Shown piece after piece: positions 20,326 to 46,143 of a stretch of 46,143 nt of DNA. The notes under the pieces are model-generated. The model was not told the DNA's origin. It made no database searches and was given only the letters and a program-made list of their open reading frames with translations. A program made the position numbers and the translations under genes. Source of the stretch: Desulfobulbaceae bacterium (lineage in GTDB: Bacteria > Desulfobacterota > Desulfobulbia > Desulfobulbales > Desulfocapsaceae). The stretch covers positions 1-46,143 of the forward strand of contig QZLB01000113.1 of NCBI GenBank assembly GCA_004796425.1, read 5' to 3'. Numbering within the stretch: the stretch's first letter is position 1; each line of letters begins with the position of its first letter.

Positions 20326-21786
20326 GTGCAACTGATGCTGAGAAAACTTAAAAATTTATTCCACAAACCCACGCTTGTTCAGTCGGGAGAGCCTCCGGAA
20401 ATCCTTCTGCTGACCGCTCCCCCGTGGGGTACCCACAATCCACCGACTGGACTTGCCTACCTCTCTACCTACCTCAAAGCACACGGAGTCAAGGTCTCGG
20501 TCTTTGATGCAAATATCGAGTTTTACCGAAGGATCAACCCGGAAAATCACCGACTCTGGCTCCCGGAAAATAAAAAGTGGTGGGCAACGGATGAATCATT
20601 TGAGGAGTTGCGCGTCCGTTTTACTGATCAACTTGACTGGATTGCTCATCGTGTAGTGTCCAGCAAGGCTCCGGTGGTTGGTTTTTCAGTCGTCGATCCC
20701 AAGGAGCGGATGACTATTGAAATTGTTAAACGGATTATCAAGCGTAAGCCCGAAACCAGAATCATTATGGGGGGACCGGCAATTTCGACCCCCGAGCAGC
20801 GGGATATTTTCTGCCGCAGACTACCCGGTCTGATCGATTTTTTTGTTGAGGGACCAGGTGAAGCGGCCCTGTTGGAGATCATGAAGCGCTATCGAACGAG
20901 TGGCTTTACAGCAAATCCCGGACGAGCTTCAAGTCCCGAGATCGTCAGTCTTCCCATCGAGTCACTGGATGAGATTCCACATCCTCGCTACGATGAGTTT
21001 GACTTCAGCCTCTATGACGGTGGTGGCTTTTTTGTCGAATGGTCACGTGGTTGTATCAGCTCATGTGCATACTGCAAAGGGCGTCACTTGCTGGGACCGT
21101 ACCGAATGAAAAAAGCGACCGCGATTTTGGCGGAGTTGGACTATCTCTATGAACGGTTCGGTTTCAAGCACTTTATTGTCTGCGATAACCTGTTCAACGG
21201 CAACACCAGAGAGCTTGAAAAACTATGCGATCTCTTAATTGAGCGTTCGTACCCATTCACCTGGGAGGGCCAGGCAATACCCTATAAACGGATGACCAAA
21301 TCGCTCATGGAGAAACTGAAGCAGGCTGGCTGTCAGAAAGTGCAGTGGGGTATCGAATCGGGCTCGGATACCTTGCTGAAGAATGTGGGCAAAGGCAAAG
21401 TTTTTGCAATTGAGGATGCCCGCCAGGTTTTGCAGGATTCACATGAAGCCGGTTTAATCAATGAGATATTCATCATCGTCGGGTTGCCTGGGGAAAACGA
21501 GGCGGAATTTCAGAAAACCATGAGCTTTTTCAGAGATAATCGCGCCTACATTGATGTGATAAAGTCGATCAACACGCTTCATCTGGTTCACGGGACTGAT
21601 TTGTTCAACCACGCCTCAGACCGATTTGATCTTGAGCTTCCCGCTGAGGATATCTGGTATTATGACTGGTCGAGCCGTGATGGTCAGAACAACTATGCGC
21701 TCCGGCTCGAACGGGCAAAACGATTGATCGCATTTGCTGAGGAGCTGCAGATACCGGTTTTGGAAAACAATTTGTATGAAGGATAG
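20326..21786 (+). CDS. B12-binding-domain radical SAM protein (first of two close paralogues)
   Basis: A 486-residue cytoplasmic radical SAM enzyme. The N-terminal domain (about 24-190) has the Rossmann-like cobalamin-binding fold, including TAPPWGTHNPPTGLAYL and IIMGGPA, without a DxHxxG motif, as in class B methylase-type proteins. The radical SAM core begins at C243-x3-C247-x2-C250 (CISSCAYC), followed by ESGSD and a late VGLPGE block. Such enzymes do methylations or ring rearrangements on unactivated carbon. Start is GTG at 20326; ATG at 20335 is an alternative. It lies three bases after the epimerase, so it is translationally close to it. It resembles the gene at 40008 throughout. The substrate may be a sugar or lipid of the locus. 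Confidence 0.9.
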   Translation: MQLMLRKLKNLFHKPTLVQSGEPPEILLLTAPPWGTHNPPTGLAYLSTYLKAHGVKVSVFDANIEFYRRINPENHRLWLPENKKWWATDESFEELRVRFTDQLDWIAHRVVSSKAPVVGFSVVDPKERMTIEIVKRIIKRKPETRIIMGGPAISTPEQRDIFCRRLPGLIDFFVEGPGEAALLEIMKRYRTSGFTANPGRASSPEIVSLPIESLDEIPHPRYDEFDFSLYDGGGFFVEWSRGCISSCAYCKGRHLLGPYRMKKATAILAELDYLYERFGFKHFIVCDNLFNGNTRELEKLCDLLIERSYPFTWEGQAIPYKRMTKSLMEKLKQAGCQKVQWGIESGSDTLLKNVGKGKVFAIEDARQVLQDSHEAGLINEIFIIVGLPGENEAEFQKTMSFFRDNRAYIDVIKSINTLHLVHGTDLFNHASDRFDLELPAEDIWYYDWSSRDGQNNYALRLERAKRLIAFAEELQIPVLENNLYEG

Positions 21787-23551: not shown

Positions 23552-25144
23552 ATGCACTTAATACCAAAAACTATTCTAATCCTGTTTGGCCTGTTTCTCC
23601 TCGTCGGGCAGCGTCCATCAGATCTCAAGGGCGAGGAAACCTTACCCAATATCATTTATATCTGGATCGATACCCTGCGTGCTGATGGTCTCGGGTTTTA
23701 TGGCAACGAGCGTGAGCTTTCTCCCAATCTGGACCAACTTGCCGAAGAATCAATTGTGTTCATGAATCAACACACGCCACATACGGTTACGCTTTCCAGT
23801 TTTTCCTCGATCATCACCGGCTTGTACCCCTTTTCACATGGCGTTTTAAATATCTCCAAAGACAAATTGCCGATCCAGGTGAAGACTTTTGCCCAAGTGC
23901 TCAAGATGCACGGCTACCAGACCTCCTGGTTTGGCCCACTTGAAGATCCCCATCTGGACCCTGAGGTCGGTTTTGGCTGGGGCTTTGATAAGATCGATGA
24001 GTTTGACAGCAATTTTGGCCTCGCCTTCGGCACCGATAAAATTCTGCAGGAAATCGAACGGCTGAAAGATCAGCGTTTTTTTATCAATTTTCATACCTAT
24101 TTCGTTCATGCGCCCTATATCCCTTCGGAAGAGTACCGATTTGCCTTTACCGAAAAGAAAGATTACGGGGTAATTGAGAGTTGGGAAGGGATCGAAGCGG
24201 CAACGGTACGGAATATAAAACAAGCAATTGAAACAGAGGATGGCATGGCCTATTGGATCCTCGAAAAAGAACTCGCGGACGAAATGCGCGAAGCAGACCT
24301 GTTCACTGATGATTACAGAACGTCCGCCCGGAAGATTCAGGACTATTTACTGGAAAGAAATCTGTTCCACCGCTATAACAATATCTTCTCGCTTTCATAC
24401 CAGAATAGTATTGACCAGTCGAACCCGGAAGTTCTCGAGTACGTCCGGGCGCTCTATGATGCAACTGTTCTTGAGTTCGACCAGGAAGTGATCGGGCCGT
24501 TGGTTGAACGGCTGAAGGAAATGGGACTTTATGACAAGACCATGATCATTGTCTGCTCAGATCATGGTGAGGAATTTGGTGAACATGGAGAGCTTGGTCA
24601 TGGTAGAAGCCTGTATCAGGAGGTAACCCACGTCCCGTTCTTTTTCAAACCCGCCGGTGACCATGTTCATCAGAAGATTTATGAGCGCAGCCAGACTGTT
24701 GATATCATGCCGACGATTCTTGATCTGATTGGCATCAGGATTCCCCATCAAATTGATGGTCAGGGTAAAAATTTTGCCCCGTTGATTCGGAACGAGGCAG
24801 GATTTGAACCACGAAAGTATTTGTACGGCCAGATGAACTATCATGAATCTATCAGCTCAGATGATTGGAAGCTTCATATATTCAGGGGATATCACGAGCT
24901 GCCGTGGTTTGGAGAAGCGATCAATATCGCGATCTTTGGCAAGCGGGAGTTGTTCAATGTAAAAAATGATCCCACGGAGCAGATCAATTTGCTAAAGAAA
25001 CAACAACTCGTGGGCAAGTCGCTGACCAAAGAGCTGAGAGAATGGAAGGACAGTTTGAGACGGTTCCAGACCGAAGTATACGAATTCCAACCAAATATTG
25101 ATGAGCAAACCAAGGACCGGATCAAGAAGACGGGTTACTGGTAA
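23552..25144 (+). CDS. Exported sulfatase-like protein with Thr at the nucleophile position
   Basis: A 530-residue protein with a signal peptide or anchor at about 8-22, paralogous to the preceding gene. The first metal aspartates are present (D40 in WIDTLR, D45), as are SDHGEEFGEH (D337, H338) and LGHGR. The nucleophile block reads HTVTLSSFSSIITGLYP, with T80 at the Cys/Ser position and no CxPxR. With its metal ligands intact, it could be an active phosphotransferase or phosphatase using threonine, rather than a formylglycine sulfatase. The C-terminus RIKKTGYW repeats the end of its neighbour. It may add or remove a phosphorylated group on the exported glycan. No strong ribosome site is visible before 23552. 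Confidence 0.85.
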   Translation: MHLIPKTILILFGLFLLVGQRPSDLKGEETLPNIIYIWIDTLRADGLGFYGNERELSPNLDQLAEESIVFMNQHTPHTVTLSSFSSIITGLYPFSHGVLNISKDKLPIQVKTFAQVLKMHGYQTSWFGPLEDPHLDPEVGFGWGFDKIDEFDSNFGLAFGTDKILQEIERLKDQRFFINFHTYFVHAPYIPSEEYRFAFTEKKDYGVIESWEGIEAATVRNIKQAIETEDGMAYWILEKELADEMREADLFTDDYRTSARKIQDYLLERNLFHRYNNIFSLSYQNSIDQSNPEVLEYVRALYDATVLEFDQEVIGPLVERLKEMGLYDKTMIIVCSDHGEEFGEHGELGHGRSLYQEVTHVPFFFKPAGDHVHQKIYERSQTVDIMPTILDLIGIRIPHQIDGQGKNFAPLIRNEAGFEPRKYLYGQMNYHESISSDDWKLHIFRGYHELPWFGEAINIAIFGKRELFNVKNDPTEQINLLKKQQLVGKSLTKELREWKDSLRRFQTEVYEFQPNIDEQTKDRIKKTGYW

Positions 25145-27710: not shown

Positions 27711-29669
27711 TTACTTGTTATTGAACTGGCTCATCTCCGATAAATGCTGGTAGAGCATTTGCTCGAGTTCATAAGCTTTTCTACCGTTTTGTTCGATCAG
27801 GTTCGTCTGTTCCAGGGGGTCTGATTGCAGGTTGTAAAGCTCTCGTGCTTCCGTGTCGAGGGACAGAATTAGCTTCCAGCCATCACTGGTATTGACCGCC
27901 CGTTTGAAACTTTGCAACAGGTAGTCGGTTTCGGAAAAACCAATGAGCTCAATAGATTCACCCTGCATGAGTGGTATCAGGCTGACTCCTTCAAATTGTT
28001 TCATACTGATTTCATCAGTGATGTTAAGGGCATCGAGTACCGTCGGGGCGATATCCAAGGTTCGAACGAGTTGATTCGTACGACCTTTCAGCCCGGGAAT
28101 ATGGATCAGCAGCGGTACCTGGATGAGTTCCTGGTATAGACTGAAGCCATGGTCGATCCTGCCATGTTGGTTATACTCATTTCCGGATCCGGAAGAGATC
28201 ACGATGATAGTATCATCCATCAATTTCATGCTCTCAAGCTGGTCTATAAATGCGCCGAACCGCGCATCGGCCGCAGCAATTTTGGCATCATAAACTGAAC
28301 GGAGAAAGGCGAAGTCCTCATCGCTGAGGCTGACCGTACCATTATCAATATTACTACTGCGCAGGTCCCAATATTCCTCGGGACTACCGGTTAATGGACC
28401 GCTATAATCTTTTTTCAGGAACCGCTCTGCTTGTTTCTGGTCCAATGGAAAGCGGCCATGTACGTCAAAGCCCTGGATAAAAAGGAAGAACCGGTTCTGG
28501 TGATGCTCCTGCAGCCACTTCAGGGCGCGGGGCATTGTCTCATCGAAACCGGCGAAATCAATCTCATCAAAATAGGTATCAAAACCGAGATCGTAGCCAA
28601 ACTTACTTGAAACACCGGCACCACCAGTAAAACCTGCTGTTGTGTAGCCATGACGTTTGAGTATCTGGGCGAGAGTCGTGACCTGGGGGGAGAGTTCATC
28701 AAGCTTTGAAAGCTTTTGAGAGTCATTCGTTATCTCACTGTACTTATTCGTAATACCGTGTTGGCTGGGATACAGAGAGGTAAACCAGGTCATGAAAACG
28801 GGCAGGGTCCACGAAGATGGGCTGAGTGCATTCTCAAATAGAAAATTCTGTTCACCAAATTGGTCCAAATTGGGAGTGGTGCCTACCGGGTATCCGTAAC
28901 TACCGACGTGGTTTGAGCCAAGCGGTTCAAAACCGACTAGAATGACATTATAGGCACCAGCCGGCTCTGCTGTTTCTGTTGGTGCCAATTCGGGTTTCAG
29001 GTAGTTGGTAGGTTGCAGCCGGCTCTCATTTGAGGGTATCAGGCTGATTGGCTCGGGTGAGTCGTCAACGATAATGGACTGGGCAAGAGAAAGTACGGTT
29101 TCCTCAACAAATTCGGCAGCGGGGAGAAAATAATCCAAACGGACCAGGGACTGTTCTGCAGGGTTATAGATAAAAGTGACAAACCCTTTGTGAACAATCT
29201 GATCCTGCGGCAGAGCCCCATACGTATAGCGCTTACTACTGGCAATGAGAAACAAGGGGGCCTGTTGGTTGCCAAAGTTTAAGGTCTGATATTTTGGTCT
29301 CAGTTCAACCGGATATTCTACAGCATTGGTAACCATTCCCGGATAAGGCGAGGGAAGGTTGTTGTAAAGTGAAGTGATGATGTTAAGCCGTTCAGCGGTA
29401 ATTCGGGCGGCTTCTTCGGGATCAACGGGTTTGATGATTTCACATTTAAGCATACCCTGGTTGTTGACCGCCCGGATGGTTTGAAAAGACCTCTGCTTAC
29501 CCTTTCTGCTACTGTTTTTTTCGATCTGGTAGTCAAGGGCGTCGGGAATTATCAAACCGGTTAGTTTCGTGAGCGCGGCTTGTTCTTGGTTTTCAGAGCA
29601 AGCACCGAGCGCCAGGCAAAAGGCTATGGCCATCAAAACGGGTAATGGGATGGGTGAAAAACTTTTCAT
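27711..29669 (-). CDS. Sulfatase-like lipoprotein, probable pseudoenzyme
   Basis: A 652-residue lipoprotein: the signal peptide ends in the lipobox LGAC with C24 as the lipidated residue. An N-terminal region of about 210 residues has no match that I know. From about 238 a sulfatase-like domain begins: NVILVGFEPLGSNHVG, where the first metal aspartate is glutamate E248; SWTLPVFMTWFTSLYP with T288 at the nucleophile position; and SSGSGNEYNQHG, where the DH of the usual DHG is G494-S495. Losing those ligands makes hydrolysis improbable, so a binding or scaffolding role is more likely. It is on the minus strand inside a plus-strand locus, probably cotranscribed with the MORN protein gene 92 bases upstream. 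Confidence 0.85.
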   Translation of the reverse strand: MKSFSPIPLPVLMAIAFCLALGACSENQEQAALTKLTGLIIPDALDYQIEKNSSRKGKQRSFQTIRAVNNQGMLKCEIIKPVDPEEAARITAERLNIITSLYNNLPSPYPGMVTNAVEYPVELRPKYQTLNFGNQQAPLFLIASSKRYTYGALPQDQIVHKGFVTFIYNPAEQSLVRLDYFLPAAEFVEETVLSLAQSIIVDDSPEPISLIPSNESRLQPTNYLKPELAPTETAEPAGAYNVILVGFEPLGSNHVGSYGYPVGTTPNLDQFGEQNFLFENALSPSSWTLPVFMTWFTSLYPSQHGITNKYSEITNDSQKLSKLDELSPQVTTLAQILKRHGYTTAGFTGGAGVSSKFGYDLGFDTYFDEIDFAGFDETMPRALKWLQEHHQNRFFLFIQGFDVHGRFPLDQKQAERFLKKDYSGPLTGSPEEYWDLRSSNIDNGTVSLSDEDFAFLRSVYDAKIAAADARFGAFIDQLESMKLMDDTIIVISSGSGNEYNQHGRIDHGFSLYQELIQVPLLIHIPGLKGRTNQLVRTLDIAPTVLDALNITDEISMKQFEGVSLIPLMQGESIELIGFSETDYLLQSFKRAVNTSDGWKLILSLDTEARELYNLQSDPLEQTNLIEQNGRKAYELEQMLYQHLSEMSQFNNK

Positions 29670-31930: not shown

Positions 31931-32761
31931 ATGAACGCGCCAATAATAATTATCGGGATGCATCGTTCCGGGACCACATTGGTGGCCCGGTTGCTGGAGG
32001 CGTATGGAGTCTATTGGGGGAGTGTTACCGACAACTATAATGAAGCGGTCAGTTTCCAGGTCATTAATGACCTGTTGATGGGGGTTGATGGTTGTGCCTG
32101 GGATGACGGATACTGTCTTGACCACTCATTCAGTTTACCGCTCAGGCTGCAGCGTGGGCAGGAAATGGTGAAGGCCATAGTAGATGAGCAGTTCATGGAT
32201 CTTTATTTCCGGAATCACCAGAACCGGGAACCACGTGATACTGGTGAGCTGGGAGTATGGGGATTTAAAGATCCGCGCAATACGTATACACTGCCGGTCT
32301 GGCTCCACCGGTTTCCGCAGGCCAAAGTTATCCATGTGATCAGAAACGGGATAGATGTTGCGCGGAGTCTTCATAAGCGAGAGACCACACGGCCAGAAGG
32401 GCAGGCTCATCCCCATTACTCGGAGCGGTGTCAAACACTTGAGGGATGTTTGGAACTGTGGACTCACTATGTGAGACGGGCAGAGAGGCACCCACCTGAG
32501 TCGAGTATGCTGTTTCGCCTCTATTACGAAGATCTGCTTGAAAATCCCAGGGGCCAGATGGCGAAGCTGGCAGAATATCTGGAGCTGGACGAAAAAGCGC
32601 TTGATCAAACAGTTTTCAATCAGCTTGATGTAAGCAGACGATTTGCCTTTTTGGCCGCATCAGATGTTGTTGATCAGCGTTTTGCTGAAAAAGCACAAAC
32701 CCACGAGCTCATGACCGAGTTGTATCAGGATCGGCTGAGCCGGACACTATCAGATAATTGA
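31931..32761 (+). CDS. Sulfotransferase family protein
   Basis: A 276-residue cytoplasmic enzyme predicted to transfer sulfate from PAPS. The 5'-phosphosulfate-binding loop is GMHRSGTT at 9-16, and the 3'-phosphate site is VIRNGIDVARSL at about 139-150. Start 31931 follows AAGGA. It ends in TTGA, overlapping the start of the ABC permease. This fits sulfation of a sugar before or during export, and gives a reason for sulfatase-like relatives in the locus. Some members of this broad family act on amino acids or lipids, so the acceptor is not certain. Confidence 0.85.
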   Translation: MNAPIIIIGMHRSGTTLVARLLEAYGVYWGSVTDNYNEAVSFQVINDLLMGVDGCAWDDGYCLDHSFSLPLRLQRGQEMVKAIVDEQFMDLYFRNHQNREPRDTGELGVWGFKDPRNTYTLPVWLHRFPQAKVIHVIRNGIDVARSLHKRETTRPEGQAHPHYSERCQTLEGCLELWTHYVRRAERHPPESSMLFRLYYEDLLENPRGQMAKLAEYLELDEKALDQTVFNQLDVSRRFAFLAASDVVDQRFAEKAQTHELMTELYQDRLSRTLSDN

Positions 32762-34912: not shown

Positions 34913-36379
34913 ATGACGCAGAAAGTGTTTCTTGGCAATGCACCATGGAAAAAACCCGGCTACTACGGTGTGCGGGCTGGCTCCAGGTGGCCTCATTTTG
35001 AAGTAAATACCAATCGATACATGCCGTTTCCGTTCCAGCTTGCGTATGCAGCAGCATTGCTGGAAAAGGAAGGGTTTGAGGTGTTGTTGGTCGATGCAAT
35101 TGGTGAGGATATTGATGAAGCGCAATTTATTTCCAGAATTGTTGATTTTGATCCGGCAATCATTCTGCTTGAAGTTTCCACACCATCGTTCAACGGTGAC
35201 TTGAAGATTGCCCAGCAGATTGATAGCCGGCGAGACAAGCAATCTCTTCTCGCTTTTTGCGGTCCTCACGCACCCATGGGAGAGCCTGCTTTTCTGGATG
35301 TTCACCCCTATATCGACCTGGTACTGGTTGGTGAATACGAGCTGACCCTGCTCAATGTTGCCCGGGCCTTAAATGACAAGCGCGCCTTGACGGAGGTGCC
35401 CGGGATCCTGTTTCGTGATGATCAGAACCAGATACACGCGACCGGCGATGGTGAAATCATCGAAGATATAGACAGTCTCCCCTGGCCAGCCCGGCATTTT
35501 TTACCGATGGATCGATACTTTGACAATCCGGGCTCAATTCCAGAGCCCGCTCTGCAGATGTGGGCCAGCCGGGGATGTCCCTTTAAATGCAGCTATTGTA
35601 TCTGGCCCCAATTGCTTGGTGGCAACCGGTATCGCCCACGAGCCCCCCATCATATTTTGGACGAGATAGAGGCGGTCTGCGCGGAGTATGGCCATAAATC
35701 GATCTATTTCGATGATGATACCTTCAACATCGGCAAAAAGCGGATGCTGGAATTCTGCCGGGAGAAAAACAGGCGCGGGTTGGATCTCCCCTGGGCAATT
35801 ATGGCCCGGGCGGACCTGATGGACCGGGAAATTCTTGAGGCGATGCAGGGGTCGGGACTAAAGGCAGTGAAGTACGGGGTTGAATCAGCCAGTCAAACCT
35901 TGCTTGAACGGGTTGATAAGCAGATGAACCTGGAGAAAACGATTGAAAACATCGAACTGACAAAGTCCATGGGCATCAAGGTTCACCTCACCTTTATGTT
36001 CGGGATACCCGGTGAAACGCAGCAGAGCGTGGAGGAGACCGTAAAGCTTGCCAAGCGACTTGATCCGGAATCGGTCCAGTTCTCGATCATGACACCGCTG
36101 CCTGGTACCCGGATATACGATGAATTACTGGCCAAAGGGCATTTGAAAGTTTCGGACTGGGAAAAACTCGATGGCTATTTTTCTGCAGTGGTCCGAACTG
36201 AGGAAATGACAGCGGCTCAATTGGAAGAGGCCGTGAAGTATGCCTGGAGGAGTTGGGGGCGACACAAGGCCAAGAAGGGTTTCACGCTTGATGAGCTGTG
36301 GTATGGACTGAAGCAGGTTCCACGATATTGCCTTAATCCGGGAGCAGCCTGGCGACAGGTAAAGAGAATTATGGGCTGA
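34913..36379 (+). CDS. B12-binding-domain radical SAM protein
   Basis: A 488-residue radical SAM enzyme with a cobalamin-binding-type N-terminal domain (about 35-185; FQLAYAAALLEKEGF, LLEVSTPSF, DLVLVGEYE). The radical SAM cluster motif is C222-x3-C226-x2-C229 in SRGCPFKCSYC, followed by YFDDDTFN, YGVESAS and FMFGIPGE, the standard BchE/HpnP-like layout. It differs in detail from the paralogous pair at 20326 and 40008, so it probably does a different reaction, such as C-methylation. The start follows an AGAGG site by nine bases. It is the last gene before a probable new promoter at 36428, so it belongs with the exporter transcript. Confidence 0.92.
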   Translation: MTQKVFLGNAPWKKPGYYGVRAGSRWPHFEVNTNRYMPFPFQLAYAAALLEKEGFEVLLVDAIGEDIDEAQFISRIVDFDPAIILLEVSTPSFNGDLKIAQQIDSRRDKQSLLAFCGPHAPMGEPAFLDVHPYIDLVLVGEYELTLLNVARALNDKRALTEVPGILFRDDQNQIHATGDGEIIEDIDSLPWPARHFLPMDRYFDNPGSIPEPALQMWASRGCPFKCSYCIWPQLLGGNRYRPRAPHHILDEIEAVCAEYGHKSIYFDDDTFNIGKKRMLEFCREKNRRGLDLPWAIMARADLMDREILEAMQGSGLKAVKYGVESASQTLLERVDKQMNLEKTIENIELTKSMGIKVHLTFMFGIPGETQQSVEETVKLAKRLDPESVQFSIMTPLPGTRIYDELLAKGHLKVSDWEKLDGYFSAVVRTEEMTAAQLEEAVKYAWRSWGRHKAKKGFTLDELWYGLKQVPRYCLNPGAAWRQVKRIMG

Positions 36380-36545: not shown

Positions 36546-37451
36546 ATGTCAAAATTAACATTGGATGGACTCACAACACTTGAATCACGGCGTATATCTG
36601 TGGTTGGGGGAGAAAGTGTTGAGCAAGCCAGGGAACGGATCGATGATACGCTGCGGGCTTTTGTTGAAACAACCACCACACACCAGGCACTGAAAAATTA
36701 TATACGTACGGCGCATGATATCCTGCTGAGCAAGAATGCTAAGCGGGTGCGCTCCATTTTTCCGGTATTAATCGCTGAAGAGTGCGGGCTTGATTTACAG
36801 GAATGCACTCATTATGGAATTTCCATAGAGTTTTTGCACTATGCGTCGCTGATCCACGATGATGTGATTGATGAGGATCATGAGCGTCGTGGTATTAAGA
36901 CACTCAATGCCAGGTTCCCCAACTCGCATGCGGTTCTGATTGGCGATTATATGACCTCCGTGGTTATTGAATTTGCCCTGGAATTCGAACACAGCGATAA
37001 AGTGATACGGGCCATCGTTGATACCTCTAAAAGCCTGGTGACCGGCCTGGTTATTGAGCAGACCGTGATGCCGACTCAAGCCAGTCGGGAGACCTATCTT
37101 GAAATGGCAGCGCTGAAAACCGGTTCGCTCTTTGAACTTGCCACCGGGTTGCCATTTATTAATCATCAGAATTTTGAGAAAGCCCGAGAGTTTGGCAGGA
37201 TATTCGGAATCTTGTTCCAGGTCTATGATGACTATACTGATCGGACCACTGATGATCGGTATTACAACATTTTCCATATCCTGGAAGAGGAAGAGATCAG
37301 TCAGCTCTGGGAGGAGTATTATCAGCGGCTTCTGTATCTTGCAAAAGAAGTGGGTGTTGAGAACGTCCTTTCCGTGATGATCAAATACCTCCAGTCCAAA
37401 GGGTATTTTCAAGATACATTGTCCTCGGGTATCACCCTGTTCAAAGTATAA
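36546..37451 (+). CDS. Trans-isoprenyl diphosphate synthase-like protein
   Basis: A 301-residue member of the polyprenyl synthetase family, which extends allylic diphosphates with isopentenyl diphosphate. The first aspartate-rich motif is LIHDDVIDEDHERRG (D105, D106, D109), with the second in QVYDDYTDRT. The residues four and five before the first motif are small (Ala, Ser), which in characterised enzymes allows longer products; this is only suggestive. After the second motif the usual G-K basic block is not seen, and the C-terminal region is short, so it may be a divergent member. ATG at 36546 follows ACAGGG. Its place in a glycan locus suggests a lipid carrier or a prenylated product. Confidence 0.85.
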   Translation: MSKLTLDGLTTLESRRISVVGGESVEQARERIDDTLRAFVETTTTHQALKNYIRTAHDILLSKNAKRVRSIFPVLIAEECGLDLQECTHYGISIEFLHYASLIHDDVIDEDHERRGIKTLNARFPNSHAVLIGDYMTSVVIEFALEFEHSDKVIRAIVDTSKSLVTGLVIEQTVMPTQASRETYLEMAALKTGSLFELATGLPFINHQNFEKAREFGRIFGILFQVYDDYTDRTTDDRYYNIFHILEEEEISQLWEEYYQRLLYLAKEVGVENVLSVMIKYLQSKGYFQDTLSSGITLFKV

Positions 37452-37575
37452 TCTCGGTCACACCCGCTGAGCAAAGAGAGCGCTAACTCAACTTCTCCCA
37501 TGTTTCCAGTTAACAACCGGCCATTACAACTGTGCACAGGAATAACTCCATGTTCTGGGAATGGAGCGTCGTACT

Positions 37576-38778
37576 ATGTATAGCTTTCTGCGCAGAAACC
37601 TTGAGCTTGCCGGCGTTCTTGATGGAGAAACAGGTTTTGTAGGTCCAGAGCTTCTGCAGATAGATCTTACCAATAATTGCAATAATAATTGTATTGCCTG
37701 TTGGTGTCGTTCACCGCTGCTCCAGGAACAGGTGATTTCACCCGAACTCGGTGCGCAAACCCTGCCGCTCGAGTTGGTCAAAAAAACACTCGATGACTGT
37801 GCCAGAATGGGTACGGTCGATATCTATCTTGCCGGTGGCGGTGAACCGTTCATGCACCCCGATATCATGGAGATTCTGGCTTATATCAAAAAGCTGGGCT
37901 TCAGGTGCCATTTGAATACAAATTTTACCCTGGTGGATCGCGAACGTGCGGCAACTTTGAACCACCTTGGTGTTGATAACCTGATTGTCAGCCTCTGGGC
38001 AGCGACCCCCGCCTCCTATGTGGCCAGCCATTCAAATCAGACTGAGGCCACATTTGAACGCATCACCGATACCATCACGCATCTTGCCAACCTGAAAAAG
38101 GGAGGACCTCCCCATATTAAGCTCTACAATGTGATCATGAGTAAGAATTATCATGAGGTTGTGGAGATGGCTGAATTTGCCCATCGGATCGGTGCGGATG
38201 CCGTTGAGTATACCCCTGCAGATATTATCCCCGGTTATACCGATGAACTGCTGCTTAATGAAGATCAGAGGCGCCAGGTATTAGACTGCGAAACTCGCTT
38301 GCAGGAACTGGATGAGGAGTATGGCGGCAGGCCGGATCTCTGGTATCAGGAGTTTATGCGGCGGTTATCCGGCACCGGCGCTTCAATGGGTGAATACGAC
38401 CAATTGATGTTGACCGATATCCCCTGTAATATTGGCTGGAACTTCTCACGTATACTGGCCGACGGCAATGTCAATGCCTGCTTGAAAGCCCATCGAATTC
38501 CAGTGGGTAATATCCATGAGGAGTCCTTTCGCTCTATCTGGAATGGTCGGTTGCAAAAGGAATTCAGGCAGAAAACCAGAACGGCAGATGTAACCGATCC
38601 TTTTTTCACTATGATTGGTAACGACGAAGGAACCCAGGTATCCCAAATTGGTTGCCATCGTGGCTGTGATGATATTGATCGTAACCGGCGGCTGCAGAAA
38701 AGGCTTGAGAAATTGAGCCTGGCTCAACGTTTGATTTTGAAGGGGGTAGGCCGACTATACCGGATGTTTCGTACATAA
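37576..38778 (+). CDS. Radical SAM protein with SPASM-like C-terminus (paralogue A)
   Basis: A 400-residue radical SAM enzyme of the MoaA/PqqE-like type without a cobalamin domain. The cluster motif is DLTNNCNNNCIACWCRSPL with C35, C39 and C42 from the start at 37576; an earlier ATG at 37561 is possible but GGAG lies nine bases before 37576. GGGEP follows as the SAM-binding GGE block. The C-terminal third has IPCNIGW, NACLKA and GCHRGCDD, four cysteines placed like a reduced SPASM domain for an auxiliary iron-sulfur cluster. It shares the unusual C-N-N-N-C-x-A-C-W pattern with the gene after it and with the second core of the ORF at the right edge. Likely substrate is a sugar or an aminoacylated group, unproven. 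Confidence 0.9.
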   Translation: MYSFLRRNLELAGVLDGETGFVGPELLQIDLTNNCNNNCIACWCRSPLLQEQVISPELGAQTLPLELVKKTLDDCARMGTVDIYLAGGGEPFMHPDIMEILAYIKKLGFRCHLNTNFTLVDRERAATLNHLGVDNLIVSLWAATPASYVASHSNQTEATFERITDTITHLANLKKGGPPHIKLYNVIMSKNYHEVVEMAEFAHRIGADAVEYTPADIIPGYTDELLLNEDQRRQVLDCETRLQELDEEYGGRPDLWYQEFMRRLSGTGASMGEYDQLMLTDIPCNIGWNFSRILADGNVNACLKAHRIPVGNIHEESFRSIWNGRLQKEFRQKTRTADVTDPFFTMIGNDEGTQVSQIGCHRGCDDIDRNRRLQKRLEKLSLAQRLILKGVGRLYRMFRT

Positions 38779-38838: not shown

Positions 38839-40011
38839 TTGGACAAGGTTGACAGAAAACAGATCAATGAGCTGATTCGCAAGGGAATTGTCACGGGAGA
38901 TACGGCCTTCTGCGGACCTGAGCATGTCGTAGTTGACCTGACCAACCGCTGCAATAATAATTGCATTGCCTGCTGGACGAAATCCCCATTGCTTGATGGT
39001 TCAGGACCTGATTCCGGATGGCACCGTCAGCAACTCTCAACACAGGTCGTGCATCAACTGATCGAAGAGCTTGCCGCCCTGGGCACGAAAATCGTGCGCT
39101 TCACTGGTGGCGGAGAACCGTTTCTCCACCCCGATATTTATGAATTGATCAGCGCCGTAAAGCGCCAGGACATGTTTTGCGCGGTTACGACCAGTCTCGG
39201 AATGGTTCGGTCCGGTGATGTTGAGCGATTGATTGCCACCGGCGTGGATGAACTTTCAGTTAGTCTCTGGGCGGCGGATGAAGAAACGTATCAGGCCACA
39301 CATCCGGGAAAATCCGGTGAACGGTTCAGTGAGATTACCCGGGTGCTCAGAGCGGTTGCGGCCCGCAAAAGGAAAAGCAGACTGCGTAGCTTGTTGCGAC
39401 TTCCCCAGGGGAGCGCTCCGAAGATTACCCTGCTTAACGTCATCTCTTCAGTCAATTTCGCGCAGGTGGAAAAGATGTACGATTACGCCCGGGAGGTGGG
39501 GGCCGATGCACTCTACTTCACCGTCGTTGACCCGATCCCCGATTATACCGATTCTCTGTTGTTAACCCAGGAGCAGCGCCAGCAGGTAATCCACGCATGT
39601 CAGAATATTCTGTGTAAAAACAATTCCTTACCCAATAGAAAGCAGCTTGAGCTGGATAATTTTGAAGGTTTTTACAACCGACTGCATGCACAAGGAGCGG
39701 CCGATGGTCACTATGATGAAGCGGACATTAATGAACTACCCTGCTATATTGGCTGGTTGTTCTGTCGCGTTATGGCCAATGGTGAGGTGGTTCCGTGCTG
39801 TCGAGGTGTTGAATTAGCGTTAGGTAATCTTAATGAGCAGGGTTTCAAGGAAATCTGGTTCTCAAAAAAATATGGCAGATTCAGAAAAATGGCCAAAGAG
39901 ACAGAGAAGAGTCACCCATTTTTTTCCTCCATTGGGTGTGGCAAAACGTGTGATAACAGAATGCACAACGAAGAGATCCAAAACCGGCTCTTCCCCAACC
40001 ACCAATCATGA
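38839..40011 (+). CDS. Radical SAM protein with SPASM-like C-terminus (paralogue B)
   Basis: A 390-residue radical SAM enzyme, closely similar to the preceding gene. The core motif is DLTNRCNNNCIACWTKSPL with C38, C42 and C45; GGGEPFLHPDIYEL follows. The C-terminal LPCYIGW, VVPCCRG and IGCGKTCDN give a SPASM-like cysteine set. The start is TTG at 38839 behind AAGGA. A stretch with KRKSRLRSLLRL at about 176-187 is an insertion absent from paralogue A. The stop overlaps the start of the next radical SAM gene as ATGA, so the two products are made together. The two paralogues probably act on related substrates or as a pair. Confidence 0.92.
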   Translation: MDKVDRKQINELIRKGIVTGDTAFCGPEHVVVDLTNRCNNNCIACWTKSPLLDGSGPDSGWHRQQLSTQVVHQLIEELAALGTKIVRFTGGGEPFLHPDIYELISAVKRQDMFCAVTTSLGMVRSGDVERLIATGVDELSVSLWAADEETYQATHPGKSGERFSEITRVLRAVAARKRKSRLRSLLRLPQGSAPKITLLNVISSVNFAQVEKMYDYAREVGADALYFTVVDPIPDYTDSLLLTQEQRQQVIHACQNILCKNNSLPNRKQLELDNFEGFYNRLHAQGAADGHYDEADINELPCYIGWLFCRVMANGEVVPCCRGVELALGNLNEQGFKEIWFSKKYGRFRKMAKETEKSHPFFSSIGCGKTCDNRMHNEEIQNRLFPNHQS

Positions 40012-41522
40012 TGCCTGCAGAAGGAGTTGATATCTTGCTGGTCATGATGCCTCCCTGGGGTATCATCAACCCGCCACTGGGTCCGGCCTATCTCGCCACC
40101 AACCTGGCAAAGGCAGGGTTCAATGCTGAAATTCTTGACGTCAATATCACCTTATACCAATCGGTTACGGGTGCTGACCGTGAGCTCTGGCAGATAAGTG
40201 AGGATAATCAGTGGCGCAATCCCGAGCGGGTGGCCGATTTTGCTGATCGCTGGGAGTCTGCAATCAATGCGGTGATCGAGAAGCTGGCTACGAGCAGTGC
40301 ACCGATCATTGGCTTATCCGTTATTGATCCCAATGAAATTATTACCGCCCGGTTGGTAAAAGCATTGAAAATCCGCTGCCCCGAAAGAACAATCATCGGC
40401 GGCGGACCCGCTTGCCAGGCTCATGGACAGCGCGCATTTTTGCAGGAACTATCGGATCAAAGCTTTGACTATTTCATTATCGGTGAGGGCGAAAAGGCAC
40501 TGGTCCGCTTTCTCCAGGCGTTTAAACAGAGTGAAATTATCAGCCAGGATGTACAGGTTGTCAAGGGAGACGATGACCAGGACATTGCCAGAAAAATGGT
40601 CCCGCTGGATATGACTGAGATCGCCTACCCAACCTTTACCGAATTTGATATGTCGCATTACGGGGGGGAGAGTTTCGCACTGCTCTGGAGTCGGGGGTGT
40701 ATCGGCAGGTGCCTCTATTGCAAGGAGCGCTCGACGTGGGGTCATTACCGGGTGCGACCGGTTGAGAGTATCATCGAGGAACTCACTTTCCTGAAAAATA
40801 ACTATCATGTGTCAAATTTCGTGGTTTACGATTCCGCAGTAAACGGGAATGGTGCACACCTTGCTCAGGTATGTAAAGAAATCATTGCCAAGGGGCTGAA
40901 GATCACTTGGTCTGCGGAGGCGATCGCCTTGCCATCGATGAGCCCCGAACTACTGCAGCTGATGAAAAAAGCTGGTTGTCACACGCTGGTCTACGGGATC
41001 GAGTCAGGTTCTGATTCGGTGCTTAAGGCGATGGGGAAGCTCAGCAGCGCCAAGACCGCGGGGGAGGCCATAAAGAACACGAGCCAGGCCGGAATCAGGG
41101 TGGCGATCAATATTTTGGTCGGATTCCCCGGTGAGAGAGAAGAGGAGTTTGCTCAGACGCTTGCGTTTCTCAAGACACATGCCCCATCTATCGACCGACT
41201 TGACAGCGTCTCAACCCTTCAGGTGGTAACCGATACACCATTATGGCAAAGAATTGAGCAGTTCGGCGTGGTACTGCCTGAAAAGGAACCGCATGATCGC
41301 TGGTATACGGAAGACAAGAGCAATACATGGGATATTCGCCAGCAGCGGCTGCAAAAAGTACTGTCGGTGGTCTCCGAGTATGGTATTGAAATTGGCAGAA
41401 CTTTTTTGGATGATAGGAGTTCGATTCAAACTGATACCGGGTCGTTGAGCATTAAGTCAGCACTGCGTCGTGCTGATCGATTCCTCCGTTCCTGGGCAGG
41501 AAAAGTTGGTAACAAAACATAA
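40008..41522 (+). CDS. B12-binding-domain radical SAM protein (second of two close paralogues)
   Basis: A 504-residue radical SAM enzyme. The N-terminal domain (about 5-200) has MMPPWGIINPPLGPAYL and IIGGGPA, matching TAPPWGTHNPPTGLAYL and IIMGGPA of the gene at 20326, so they descend from one duplication or belong to one subfamily. The cluster motif is C231-x3-C235-x2-C238 (SRGCIGRCLYC). ESGSD and LVGFPGE follow in the usual order. ATG at 40008 overlaps the preceding stop; no Shine-Dalgarno is seen, so translation probably depends on coupling. The presence of two copies in one locus suggests two similar but separate modification steps. Confidence 0.92.
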   Translation: MMPAEGVDILLVMMPPWGIINPPLGPAYLATNLAKAGFNAEILDVNITLYQSVTGADRELWQISEDNQWRNPERVADFADRWESAINAVIEKLATSSAPIIGLSVIDPNEIITARLVKALKIRCPERTIIGGGPACQAHGQRAFLQELSDQSFDYFIIGEGEKALVRFLQAFKQSEIISQDVQVVKGDDDQDIARKMVPLDMTEIAYPTFTEFDMSHYGGESFALLWSRGCIGRCLYCKERSTWGHYRVRPVESIIEELTFLKNNYHVSNFVVYDSAVNGNGAHLAQVCKEIIAKGLKITWSAEAIALPSMSPELLQLMKKAGCHTLVYGIESGSDSVLKAMGKLSSAKTAGEAIKNTSQAGIRVAINILVGFPGEREEEFAQTLAFLKTHAPSIDRLDSVSTLQVVTDTPLWQRIEQFGVVLPEKEPHDRWYTEDKSNTWDIRQQRLQKVLSVVSEYGIEIGRTFLDDRSSIQTDTGSLSIKSALRRADRFLRSWAGKVGNKT

Positions 41523-41540: not shown

Positions 41541-43061
41541 TTGACAACGAACGAGGGTCAAACCATACTGATTGTCTCGAGTCAGGGACTGCCAGAGCCA
41601 GCGATACCGGCAACGGGTGGGTCGTTGCGGGCTTACGCGCTGGGGCAGGCATTAGGAGGATGCGGACACCGGGTGGTTCATTCGGTGCCACTCAGTTGTG
41701 TTGCCACTCCTTCCGTCTATGATGATATCAGTGAGTATGCTCATCAGGTCACTGATATCGAACAGATCGTCGCCAGGGTTGAACCCGATATCGTACTTTT
41801 CTGCAATTGGGGACTTGCGGTCGAAGCACTCGAGTTGGAAGTGCCAACGGTCATTGACATGAATGGCAGCCTGGTGCTTGAAAACTATTATCGTGGCCGA
41901 AACCGTTTGAGCCAGGACGGTATGGCAAAAATCGAGGCAATCAGCAAATCGGACTTTCTGATCGCCGGTTCAAACAGGCAGAAAGAGTATCTAACCGCCT
42001 GGTGCTTAATGGCGGGGTTGAAACCTGAGCAGATCCGGATTGGCGTTATTCCCTTCTCTCTAGCCCCGGTATCAGATGCTGGTCACTACCAATCTTCAGA
42101 AACCTTTGTCATGGCAGGCTATGATTGGCCCTGGTTGGATGGTGGCGCCTATCTGGAGGCAATTGGTCAGGAATTCAGCAGTTTGGGGAAGGGGGAGTTG
42201 CTTGCGTATACCTCCCATTCACCCTTTGTGGATATCTTCGAAAACGAAGACTCTTCAACAGAAGCAGACGGTAATTTGCTGACGCAGTTGGGGTCGTCTC
42301 TTACGATCAAAGAGCCTGTTCCTTTTCAGGAGCTTGAAACTGCACTTGAAGGCTGCCGTGTTGCCGTTGATCTGTGGCAGCGAAACCCCGAGCGCGATTT
42401 AGCGGTACCTTCTCGAACGGTCATGTACCTGCGGGCCGGATTACCGGTCATCACCTCCGCCCACGGCTCTCTGGCTGATATGATTGTACAGGCTGGCGCC
42501 GGTTGGAAGGTCGAAGCGGGAGATTACAACCAGTTGGGTGAGATAGTCAGGACGGTTCTTGAACTGGACAAGCACAGGCTGAAGGAAATTAGGGACCATG
42601 CCCGAGCGCTTTTCTCCCGCAGTTTTTCCTGGGATCAGACCATTGGTCCCCTGGATGAATTCTGCAGAAATCCCCACCTGAATCGCTCCTCCGCGTCTTT
42701 GAGTAGTCGTTTACTTTATTATCAACAGCTCTCGGGTTCTTTGAACAATCATGTTGTAGACCGTGATCATAAACTGGCTCATCTCAGGGGTGAACTGGAA
42801 GAAAATGCTCACCAGCTGGGAGTTACCCGCAACGCTCTTGAGCAGAGTAACCGCGAGCGGACTTTTTACCAGAATGAACGGGACTGGATGGGCAGGATTT
42901 TGAAAAAGCCAAAAGGTTTTGACCTGTTTTTTAAATCAGGGCTGCTGCGTCACCGTCTTCACCGGCTCATAATAGGGTTGCCGGTGCTGACCTACTTGAC
43001 GATTTTGACTCTGTCCGGACATTGTTTGCATATACTTTGGACAAAGGTGGGCAGACGATGA
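41541..43061 (+). CDS. GT-B glycosyltransferase with C-terminal coiled coil and membrane helix
   Basis: A 506-residue protein whose first 380 residues look like a glycosyltransferase of the GT4/GT1 kind: an N-terminal Rossmann part with ATGGSLRAYALGQALGGCGH at about 24-43, and a C-terminal part with PSRTVMYLRAGLPVITSAHG near 292-311. After that a helical segment at about 405-450, rich in Arg, Glu and Asn, looks like a coiled coil, and a hydrophobic stretch at about 476-496 looks like a transmembrane helix. The start is TTG at 41541. The stop overlaps the start of the next glycosyltransferase as ATGA. The tail may tether the enzyme to the membrane or to a partner. Confidence 0.8.
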   Translation: MTTNEGQTILIVSSQGLPEPAIPATGGSLRAYALGQALGGCGHRVVHSVPLSCVATPSVYDDISEYAHQVTDIEQIVARVEPDIVLFCNWGLAVEALELEVPTVIDMNGSLVLENYYRGRNRLSQDGMAKIEAISKSDFLIAGSNRQKEYLTAWCLMAGLKPEQIRIGVIPFSLAPVSDAGHYQSSETFVMAGYDWPWLDGGAYLEAIGQEFSSLGKGELLAYTSHSPFVDIFENEDSSTEADGNLLTQLGSSLTIKEPVPFQELETALEGCRVAVDLWQRNPERDLAVPSRTVMYLRAGLPVITSAHGSLADMIVQAGAGWKVEAGDYNQLGEIVRTVLELDKHRLKEIRDHARALFSRSFSWDQTIGPLDEFCRNPHLNRSSASLSSRLLYYQQLSGSLNNHVVDRDHKLAHLRGELEENAHQLGVTRNALEQSNRERTFYQNERDWMGRILKKPKGFDLFFKSGLLRHRLHRLIIGLPVLTYLTILTLSGHCLHILWTKVGRR

Positions 43062-44236
43062 AAATACTAATGGTTCACCCCCATGATATTTATAATAATT
43101 TTGAGCCATGGACGGTCAGGATTACGTATCTTGCCCAGGAACTGGTGAAGCGCGGTCACGAAGTCAAACTGGTCTATCATCACCGTCCACCCTCAGGCGA
43201 TGATGGGGCTGAATATAGTGAGCGGGATTATCCGTTCGAAACGATAGGCTTTCAGCGACATCCCTTTGCCATTTTTCATAACATCAGTCGATTGGAGAAA
43301 ATTGGTGGGTGGGCGGATATCGTTCACTTTCAGAAATGTTCAAATTATGCTGCGGTACCGGCTGTTGCAGCAGCGTACTATCACCGTTTACCCGTGCACT
43401 ATGATTGGGATGATTGGGAACAGGCAATTTTTGAGCAGGACAATGATAATCGGATTGGGTCATGGATCTATTTTCAGCAGATGGAAAAACATTTACTCAA
43501 ACTGGTAGACACCGTTTCGGTTGCCAGTTCGGGGTTGAACCGACTATGCCAGCAGCATCGCTTCCCCGAGGATCGTACCTTTCTCATTCCGGTCGGCGCC
43601 GATCTTGATGTCTTTCATCCAGGGGTAGACGGTACCAAGTTTCGCGAGAAACATGGCTGGCAAAAGAAACTGGTGATCTACCAAGGCCAGATCAGTGGTT
43701 CCAACTATGTGCATCTCTATATCCGGGCGGCACATGAAATTATCCAAAAACGCGATGATGTCGACTTTGTGGTTGTCGGTGGTGGCGATCAGCTCTTTCG
43801 CGCAGTCGGTTTGGCCGAGGAGTTGGGCATTACCAAACGCTTGACTTTCACGGATAAAGTTCCCCATGAGGAGGTACCGGGTTATCTGGCTGCTGCAGAT
43901 GTGGCGGTTGCCTGTTTTGAGGACAACGAACAGGTACGGTGCAAGAGTCCTTTAAAAATTAAGGAATATATGGCCGCAGGAAAACCTATCGTTGCCAGCC
44001 AGGTCGGTGATGTTCCCGATATGCTCGGTAATACGGGGGTACTGGTACCGCCTGAAAACTATCAGCAGATCGGGGCAAATATCGAAGCGCTGCTGGACGA
44101 TGACCAGCGACGAATCTCACTCGGTGAACAGGCGCGGCAGCGGGCTGAGCAGCTGTATAGCTGGAGAAAGTCGGCACTGACACTCGAACAGGCGTATTTA
44201 CGAGCCATTGATCATCACTATGCATTGGATGGTTAA
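43058..44236 (+). CDS. Glycosyltransferase family 4
   Basis: A 392-residue GT-B glycosyltransferase. The start at 43058 follows AGGTGG by eight bases, and MKILMVHPHD is a typical GT4 beginning. The C-terminal nucleotide-sugar domain has IYQGQISGSNYVHLYIRA near 207-224, VVVGGGDQ, then CKSPLKIKEYMAAGKPIVAS at about 297-316 with the conserved E-x7-E region. It overlaps the preceding gene by four bases. It probably adds one sugar to the lipid-linked chain in the cytoplasm. Donor unknown. Confidence 0.92.
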   Translation: MKILMVHPHDIYNNFEPWTVRITYLAQELVKRGHEVKLVYHHRPPSGDDGAEYSERDYPFETIGFQRHPFAIFHNISRLEKIGGWADIVHFQKCSNYAAVPAVAAAYYHRLPVHYDWDDWEQAIFEQDNDNRIGSWIYFQQMEKHLLKLVDTVSVASSGLNRLCQQHRFPEDRTFLIPVGADLDVFHPGVDGTKFREKHGWQKKLVIYQGQISGSNYVHLYIRAAHEIIQKRDDVDFVVVGGGDQLFRAVGLAEELGITKRLTFTDKVPHEEVPGYLAAADVAVACFEDNEQVRCKSPLKIKEYMAAGKPIVASQVGDVPDMLGNTGVLVPPENYQQIGANIEALLDDDQRRISLGEQARQRAEQLYSWRKSALTLEQAYLRAIDHHYALDG

Positions 44237-44242
44237 GCGGGT

Positions 44243-46143
44243 ATGCACAATAAACAGACAAGAGCGGACCTGATAGTACCGGTTCTCCCTCCCTTGCCGG
44301 TTGAGTATCCGTCTCGATTCCACATGGAATTGTCCTGGTACCTGCAGGAGTGTGACGTCAGCGCAAAAATAGAAGATCTCAACCTGGCTTGCTTCAATTC
44401 CTCGCCGATTGAGGGACGGCGCTTTTGGCACCGGATGAATCAGTTTCTCTGGCATGATCCTCATTATCCTCAATCCCCTGTCAGGCATCTGATTCAATTC
44501 CTGGCCAAAAAAGTCAAAACGATTGGCAACAATGGCGCCTCGTCGATGTACCTGAACCTCGACTATCCATCAGAGCTTATTGGTATTGAGCTGTTGAAAC
44601 TTCTCGTCTCGCAGAAATCTTCGTTGAGGATCATGGTTGGCGGGCAAAGTTGTGGTACAAAAGAACAACAGGAGCGAATTCAACAATTGGCCGATGGTGC
44701 GGTTGATCTGTTTTTCTCTGCGCAATCGCCATCACGTCTGGCCAAGCAGATTTCTGAGGTGCTGAGCGTAAACTCAGATCGAGATTTATCGAGTGGAGTG
44801 CCTGAGGGAGTCGACGTTGCAGACCGTTCCAGGAAATTTCGACTCGACCACGTTACCGATTGGTGTGAAGACACGCTGTCCGGCAGCTACCTGCCGATAT
44901 CTCTGGGCAGTGGTTGCCCGCATCAATGCAGCTTCTGTCCTCGCGGTACGGGAAATATATCCTTTGTACCCCGGGAGTGTGATGAGATCATTGAAGAAAT
45001 AACGAACTCCGTAAAAGATGGTGGCACCAGCAAGCTCTGGTTCACGGGGCTTTGTTTCACCAGCCATCCGGAATGTGAGATACTGCTTGATCAGTTACGC
45101 AAAGTGGCTCAGCCAATTAGCTGGGGGGGATCGGTTTCCCTGTTAACAATGATTGACAAGAAGCTTGTTGATCAATGTCACCAATCCGGCTGTGATGGGC
45201 TGATCTGCTGTCCGGTTCATGGCGATGAAGAGATCCTGCATACGCACTTTTCATCAGAAACGAAACTTCAGAACATCGTCCAAAATGTACAACAGTTGCG
45301 GGAGGCCGGGATAAAGACCGGGGTAAATCTGCTCGTCGGTTTCCCCTCGGAGGGCTTTGTGAGTACTGCTCGAAATCATGAATTGATTGAATGGCTTGCT
45401 CCCTTTGACCCGTTGTTTCAGTCTGTTGCACCACTGGCCGTTTTCCCGCTCACGGACCTCTATGAACAGTCTGAAAAATGGGGAATTACTGCTCATGATC
45501 CAGTGCTGGTGCATAACTGGCAGGATCAGGCCGGCAGCCGTTTCCCGGTGCGAGTGAGCAGGGTCAAAGAGCTGGTCCGGCATATCAGGCATACCGGCAG
45601 GGGCTTTGGTAATAATCTCCCCGTGGATTATCTTCATGCTTCTGCGTCCCATCGAGTCGCCGCACGAATACGGGATCCACTCATTTTCAGGGATGAACCG
45701 TTTCACCCGCATCTTGATAGTCTGGTAAGAAAATATGCCTATGGTGGGGTAAGTTTGTTCACCGGTATCTGTGAAATAGAGCCCAACGATGAACCGCTGC
45801 TGCAGGGTATCGACACGGGTGATGCTGCCCTCAATGGCCCCGAAATCGTGCATCTTGACCTTACCAACCGGTGCAATATGAACTGTCTCGCCTGTTGGGA
45901 TAAATCACCGCTGGTGAAAACGGACACAGATCATCCGGAACCGGGACGTGAAAGCCTGCAATACGATCAGGTAGTCACATTGATTGAGGCGCTTGTCGCT
46001 CTGGGTGGCACCCGGACCGTTAAATTTGGGGGAGGGGGAGAGCCGACCCTGTTCAAAGGGTGGCTCGAGGTGGTAAAACATCTCCGGAACCGGGATCGAT
46101 CTATTGAGATTGATTTAAATACCAATGGTTCCAGTCTTTCCCA
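44243..46143 (+). CDS. Tandem radical SAM protein: two cores in one chain (partial, open at right edge)
   Basis: From ATG 44243 the frame stays open for 633 codons to the window end, so the C-terminus is missing. I translated it by hand line by line and found no stop. Residues 1-210 resemble a cobalamin-binding-type domain (PVLPPLPVEYPSRF, LRIMVGGQSCG). The first radical SAM core has C225-x3-C229-x2-C232 in GCPHQCSFC, with GVNLLVGFPSEG following. The second core has DLTNRCNMNCLACWDKSPL with C544, C548 and C551, then GGGGEPTLF. This second part is homologous to the genes at 37576 and 38839. A fusion of a B12-type and a SPASM-type radical SAM enzyme in one protein suggests two sequential reactions on one substrate. 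Confidence 0.9.
   Translation, partial: MHNKQTRADLIVPVLPPLPVEYPSRFHMELSWYLQECDVSAKIEDLNLACFNSSPIEGRRFWHRMNQFLWHDPHYPQSPVRHLIQFLAKKVKTIGNNGASSMYLNLDYPSELIGIELLKLLVSQKSSLRIMVGGQSCGTKEQQERIQQLADGAVDLFFSAQSPSRLAKQISEVLSVNSDRDLSSGVPEGVDVADRSRKFRLDHVTDWCEDTLSGSYLPISLGSGCPHQCSFCPRGTGNISFVPRECDEIIEEITNSVKDGGTSKLWFTGLCFTSHPECEILLDQLRKVAQPISWGGSVSLLTMIDKKLVDQCHQSGCDGLICCPVHGDEEILHTHFSSETKLQNIVQNVQQLREAGIKTGVNLLVGFPSEGFVSTARNHELIEWLAPFDPLFQSVAPLAVFPLTDLYEQSEKWGITAHDPVLVHNWQDQAGSRFPVRVSRVKELVRHIRHTGRGFGNNLPVDYLHASASHRVAARIRDPLIFRDEPFHPHLDSLVRKYAYGGVSLFTGICEIEPNDEPLLQGIDTGDAALNGPEIVHLDLTNRCNMNCLACWDKSPLVKTDTDHPEPGRESLQYDQVVTLIEALVALGGTRTVKFGGGGEPTLFKGWLEVVKHLRNRDRSIEIDLNTNGSSLS

Follow-up and report, generated by a model that had tools for sequence, protein, structure and literature searches.

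A radical SAM/SPASM protein with a fused, probably degenerate B12-type radical SAM half in a radical SAM-rich gene cluster of a Desulfobulbaceae bacterium

Introduction

Two radical SAM domains in a single chain have a described precedent in FbiC, the FO synthase, a fusion of CofG and CofH whose domains are in other cases encoded by separate genes (PMC11917521). Both FbiC domains are catalytic. Among the enzymes of B12-type architecture, TsrM and OxsB (class 1, cobalamin-dependent), MgmA and the B12-radical-SAM-like AprD4 share a fold in which a Rossmann domain is followed by a TIM-barrel core, and TsrM shows that this fold can catalyse without the normal ligation of SAM (PMC8992657). In solved enzymes SAM is held by the GGE motif, which contacts its amino/carboxyl group, and by a ribose motif (PMC6231123). 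The radical SAM/SPASM enzymes are represented in the comparisons below by PqqE, SkfB and the BlsE-like fold.

Here we describe a gene at the end of a 46,143-nucleotide contig from a Desulfobulbaceae bacterium (the window, that is, the whole stretch of DNA analysed), in which a B12-type and a SPASM-type radical SAM module are joined in one reading frame. The likeness to FbiC lies in the two-core architecture; the modules themselves differ, being B12-type and SPASM here and CofG and CofH there. The N-terminal half shares the Rossmann and TIM-barrel core with TsrM, OxsB, MgmA and AprD4 (Z 22-24), but it does not reach the threshold of the B12-binding family PF02310, has lost acidic residues of the SAM site and, in one of the two known copies, has lost a cysteine of the iron-sulfur cluster motif. 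The C-terminal half resembles PqqE, SkfB, the BlsE-like fold and two genes of the window itself (37561 and 38839) in its PF04055 and PF13186 domains, the latter seen in the homologue, and in its fold (Z 16-18), and it differs from radical SAM/SPASM enzymes in carrying about 500 extra N-terminal residues with a second core. When we searched the open-access literature for B12-type/SPASM fusions and for tandem, degenerate or pseudo radical SAM proteins, no such fusion was found described.

Results

The fused gene (44243..46141) and all of its features lie on the forward strand. The frame runs from an ATG to the window edge over 633 amino acids without a stop codon or a frameshift signature, and contains two CX3CX2C motifs, C225/C229/C232 (CPHQCSFC, 44915..44938) and C544/C548/C551 (CNMNCLAC, 45872..45895), exactly where a sequence-only reading of this DNA had placed them; composition-preserving shuffles yield two such motifs in only 0.01% of cases. 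Pfam recognised two PF04055 stretches (total E 8.8e-25) and no other domain: the first radical SAM core at residues 219-370 (44897..45352, 53.1 bits), and the N-terminal part of the second (45860..46138), which scores 38.3 bits although the core is cut. None of the NCBIfam models reaches its cut-off for the protein. Of the 51 PF04055 matches in the genome, none was seen to share its frame with a second one, apart from those in the fusion. The right edge of the window is the physical end of the contig (C20, at 46143) in an assembly of 330 contigs, which truncates the protein at residue 633. A search with the C-terminus of the homologue described below found the missing part on no contig of the same assembly, and the SPASM domain is therefore not visible in the window itself. 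A radical SAM fragment near another contig end (C30:24-473) was considered as the continuation and rejected, since it already contains an almost entire core.

Searching 144 related genomes, we found a full-length homologue of 914 amino acids (G066:C139:13685-16429; record JAHJLI010000100.1, Old_saline.mb.128) in a metagenome-assembled genome of the same family, hereafter G066. It has the order first core, linker, second core and SPASM (PF13186, 45.0 bits, after the second core), and aligns end to end with window residues 7-632 at 31% identity. The linker between the modules (residues 456-530, 45608..45832) is of equal length in both proteins, 30% identical, with a conserved CEIE and several other invariant residues. 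The base composition at each codon position does not change across the junction. The earlier reading had named a frameshift, or a splitting of the frame, within 45700-45850 as what would overturn it; this is contradicted by the full-length homologue with the same junction. Because the junction recurs in two independent assemblies, the fusion is real, and an assembly artefact is excluded for practical purposes.

The fusion is present in 2 of the 258 genomes of the class that were searched, namely the window's genome and G066. Beyond G066, we found no further copy in the 144 relatives, the 258 order and class genomes, a sample of the phylum (395 genomes) or the class of G262, nor by pattern scans of 84,980 GTDB species, viral contigs and plasmids; those scans relied on a few short peptides, and distant copies would escape them. 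Separately, plasmids of Brachyspira hyodysenteriae (32-36 kb; plasmid matches H1-H7) have a radical SAM gene with 27% identity to the SPASM half, which may hint that this SPASM family is spread more widely on plasmids.

The N-terminal half begins with a Rossmann-like domain (residues 1-175, 44243..44767), apparently a descendant of the B12-binding domain that falls below the Pfam threshold: PF02310 does not match the window protein, and in the G066 fusion it scores 13.7 bits against a cut-off of 32.1. The earlier description of this region as cobalamin-binding in type thus stands for its ancestry and its fold, but not for the B12-binding domain as Pfam scores it. Window residues 8-456 align with the neighbouring B12-type radical SAM gene at 40008-41522 (E 1.5e-21), and among sequences of known structure the half matches AprD4 and MgmA. 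For the fold we used a model of the G066 homologue built from an 11-row alignment, with a mean pLDDT of 68 and most of both cores at 75-95; the linker and SPASM tail are poor and the placement of the halves relative to each other is unreliable (pTM 0.50). A model made without an alignment was discarded (pLDDT 34.7). The N-terminal half of the model superposes on AprD4 (Z 24.1), OxsB (23.1) and TsrM (22.5), with MgmA also within Z 22-24, over approximately 350-430 residues, and the matches to OxsB, TsrM and AprD4 start at residue 6. The half is thus predicted to keep the class 1 fold of Rossmann domain and TIM barrel, a fold that was partly guided in the modelling because the alignment contained paralogues. 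The C-terminal half of the same model is closest to BlsE (Z 17.8), SkfB (17.3) and PqqE (16.6). Its CX3CX2C is intact in both fusions, the cut core is 50% identical between them, and the relationship of this second core to the SPASM-like paralogues upstream, noticed already from the sequence, is borne out by 50-51% identity to the product of 38839-40011 over about 100 residues.

In the phylogeny, the two N-terminal halves form one clade (100/99) within the clade of the cluster's B12-radical-SAM genes (99/96), their sisters being 40008, 20326 and the G066 orthologues of these, and the two C-terminal halves form one clade (100/99) among the SPASM genes of the clusters. Long branches are present, flagged by the program, and the exact placement is therefore less certain than the pairing of the two fusions. 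On this evidence the N-terminal half derives from the B12-type radical SAM genes of this cluster, and the trees fit a history in which both halves are duplicated neighbour genes that were fused once, before the lineages of the window and G066 diverged. The halves have diverged at different rates. Between the window and G066 fusions the first core is 27% identical and the second 50%, while stand-alone orthologues between genomes are 53-71% (B12-radical-SAM) and 58-66% (SPASM) identical, and the terminal branch of the window N-terminal half measures 4.03 changes per site. As judged from these comparisons, the N-terminal half evolves much faster than the C-terminal half and than its own non-fused paralogues.

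The divergence has reached residues of the active site. In an alignment with 32 B12-radical-SAM and MiaB-type relatives, both fusions break five positions kept in 88-100% of them: G160, of the GE motif in the cobalamin domain, S222, which precedes the cluster motif, D269, G323 and E325. D269, after strand beta2 in the region of the SAM amino group, and E325 are each kept by 94% of the relatives and replaced in the two fusions by G/A and V/I, respectively; in the window, glycine stands at position 269 (45047..45049). G323, kept by 91%, is Cys in both (45209-45211), so that the window has C323-P-V325 (45209..45217) in place of the Gly-Ile-Glu of GIESG at the end of beta4. The strands were taken from the homologue model, and by their order D269 and E325 would be the counterparts of the GGE-type and ribose motifs. 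At the same sites AprD4 has both acids (VFRDPVF, GVESGD), and the window fusion has WFTGLCF and CCPVHGD. The first cluster motif is intact in the window and reads CPNGGLYC (CX3GX2C) in G066, where the middle Cys is replaced by Gly (codon GGC), a single-base difference in a metagenome assembly. Which residues are broken is not entirely the same in the two copies; D155 survives in the window fusion alone and E163 in that of G066 alone.

The N-terminal half still aligns end to end at approximately 27-35%, with the fold motifs GC and GFP.E retained, which suggests selection on structure. Taken with the fast divergence, the loss of motif residues is the pattern expected of a fold retained without its original catalytic demands. 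Cys323, adjacent to the SAM pocket in the first core, is possibly a new ligand.

The fusion belongs to a cluster with many radical SAM genes: from 20326 to the contig end there are six such genes with seven cores. On the forward strand these include the closest in-cluster relative of the N-terminal half (40008..41522; PF02310 32.4 bits, PF04055), a second B12-type gene of the same clade in the tree (20326..21786; PF02310 and PF04055), and an HpnJ-like B12-binding radical SAM gene (34913..36379), which scores 258.7 bits for TIGR03471, below the cut-off of 577.6, and is 71% identical to its copies in G066 and in a further genome of the order, G095. Two radical SAM/SPASM genes, both with PF04055 and PF13186, lie on the same strand at 37561..38778, included in the tree of the C-terminal halves, and at 38839..40011, the closest relative of the C-terminal half in the window (48-51% identity). 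A polyprenyl synthetase gene (36546..37451; PF00348, 125 bits), a glycosyltransferase-like gene (41541..43061; PF00534 24.1 bits, just under the cut-off; 46-51% identical to G095/G066) and a GT4 glycosyltransferase gene (43058..44236; PF00534, 89 bits; its start with an AGGTG ribosome-binding site) are likewise on the forward strand, the last separated from the fusion by six bases. The cluster also contains sulfatases, a sulfotransferase, epimerases and a Wzm/Wzt-type exporter. The sulfatase genes are one phosphodiesterase/sulfatase-like gene and three sulfatases, at 16069-18156, 21823-23472, 23552-25144 and 27711-29669, and the sulfotransferase gene is at 31931-32761. Four sulfatase or sulfatase-like genes together with a sulfotransferase suggest a sulfated product. 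From its gene content, the cluster probably makes a prenyl- or glycan-linked product that is exported or placed at the cell surface.

The stretch 12629-44236 is common, in whole or in part, to three genomes that belong to one order, with identities mostly of 40-79% (loci compared: L049-L051 and L072 in G066; L052, L070 and L071 in G095). The gene content of G066 is almost identical, most of the genes being 44-79% identical in sequence, and there the GT4 gene is followed by genes for an FAD oxidase and a CMAS-like methyltransferase, then by the fusion, and after it by a GDSL hydrolase gene, a further SPASM gene and a MacAB/TolC-like efflux set. When all contigs of the window's genome were searched, no ortholog of this FAD oxidase was found. 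Locus L052 of G095 (G095:C41:60000-79000) holds, in order, a polyprenyl synthetase, two glycosyltransferases, an FAD oxidase, a methyltransferase, a SPASM gene and efflux genes; its methyltransferase and SPASM genes adjoin, and in G066 the fusion and the GDSL gene lie between them. In G095, which has part of the cluster, we found neither the fusion, nor a gene of the 40008/20326 type, nor a pair of the 37561/38839 type. Since all of these are missing together, the fusion may belong with those four genes, as judged from the three genomes compared.

Discussion

Having lost SAM-site residues, the N-terminal half most likely serves as a pseudo-enzyme module. We consider it probable, though by no means assured, that the protein is an intact radical SAM/SPASM enzyme joined to a largely degenerate B12-radical-SAM module that positions a substrate or docks partners, a reading drawn from two sequences, of which the window one is cut. 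The C-terminal half would be the catalytic one, cleaving SAM reductively at its intact CX3CX2C, which is accompanied by a GGGEP motif. The N-terminal half, with its Rossmann and TIM-barrel fold kept and residues of its SAM site lost, would hold the substrate or pass it on, or else dock to the active B12-radical-SAM enzymes of the cluster. The substrate would be a prenyl- or glycan-linked intermediate of the cell-surface or exported product.

Both halves might instead be catalytic, acting in sequence on one substrate with a B12-dependent (or AprD4-like, B12-independent) step followed by a SPASM-type step. The sequence-only reading had pointed this way, taking two radical SAM classes in one chain as rare and as a sign of coupled chemistry or channelling; the combination is indeed real and locally rare, but the coupling presumes that both cores are catalytic, and the first is probably degenerate. 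In the window both CX3CX2C motifs are intact and the fold is retained, and with all three cysteines of the first core present a [4Fe-4S] cluster could still form there. FbiC uses two 5'-deoxyadenosyl radicals from its two domains (PMC11917521), and the cluster here also has B12-radical-SAM and SPASM genes as separate genes. Because the window copy keeps these cysteines and TsrM works without normal SAM ligation, two active cores deserve some weight, yet we judge them unlikely, as the conserved D269 and E325 are gone in both copies, the cluster Cys is gone in G066 and the first core diverges rapidly. A different cofactor site, built for example from C225, C232 and C323, could have repurposed the N-terminal half for another Fe-S cluster or a non-radical step. 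These three cysteines align in both fusions, and C323 replaces the Gly of 91% of the relatives, but with only two sequences the common cysteines may be due to chance or to structure, and we regard such a site as improbable. We give an equally slim chance to a two-radical enzyme in which a B12-type module rebuilt around C225/C232/C323 and the SPASM module both act on a single prenyl- or glycan-linked substrate that stays bound throughout.

That the gene is decaying and its N-terminal half a functionless relic would agree with the fast divergence of this half and the patchy distribution, in 2 of 258 genomes. It is nevertheless improbable that a decaying gene would have an uninterrupted frame of 1,899 and 2,742 bases in two lineages only 31% identical, keep its linker length and 50% identity in the C-terminal half, and align end to end in the N-terminal half with its fold motifs. 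Less probable still is an artefact of assembly or a pair of genes taken for one. The gene does lie at the end of a metagenomic contig, but the same junction is found in the independent G066 assembly and the codon-position composition is uniform through it; the internal in-frame start candidates of the window have ribosome-binding matches of at most four bases, though a weak GTG/ATG group exists in G066 at codons 502-505.

The likely reading is thus a degenerate partner domain rather than an enzyme of two reactions. The fusion also points to a hitherto undescribed cluster in which radical SAM genes abound. It is apparently a case in which a radical SAM enzyme acquired a degenerate partner domain, itself of radical SAM type, from a gene nearby, and as such it would serve as a natural experiment on the way pseudo-enzyme scaffolds arise in enzyme clusters.
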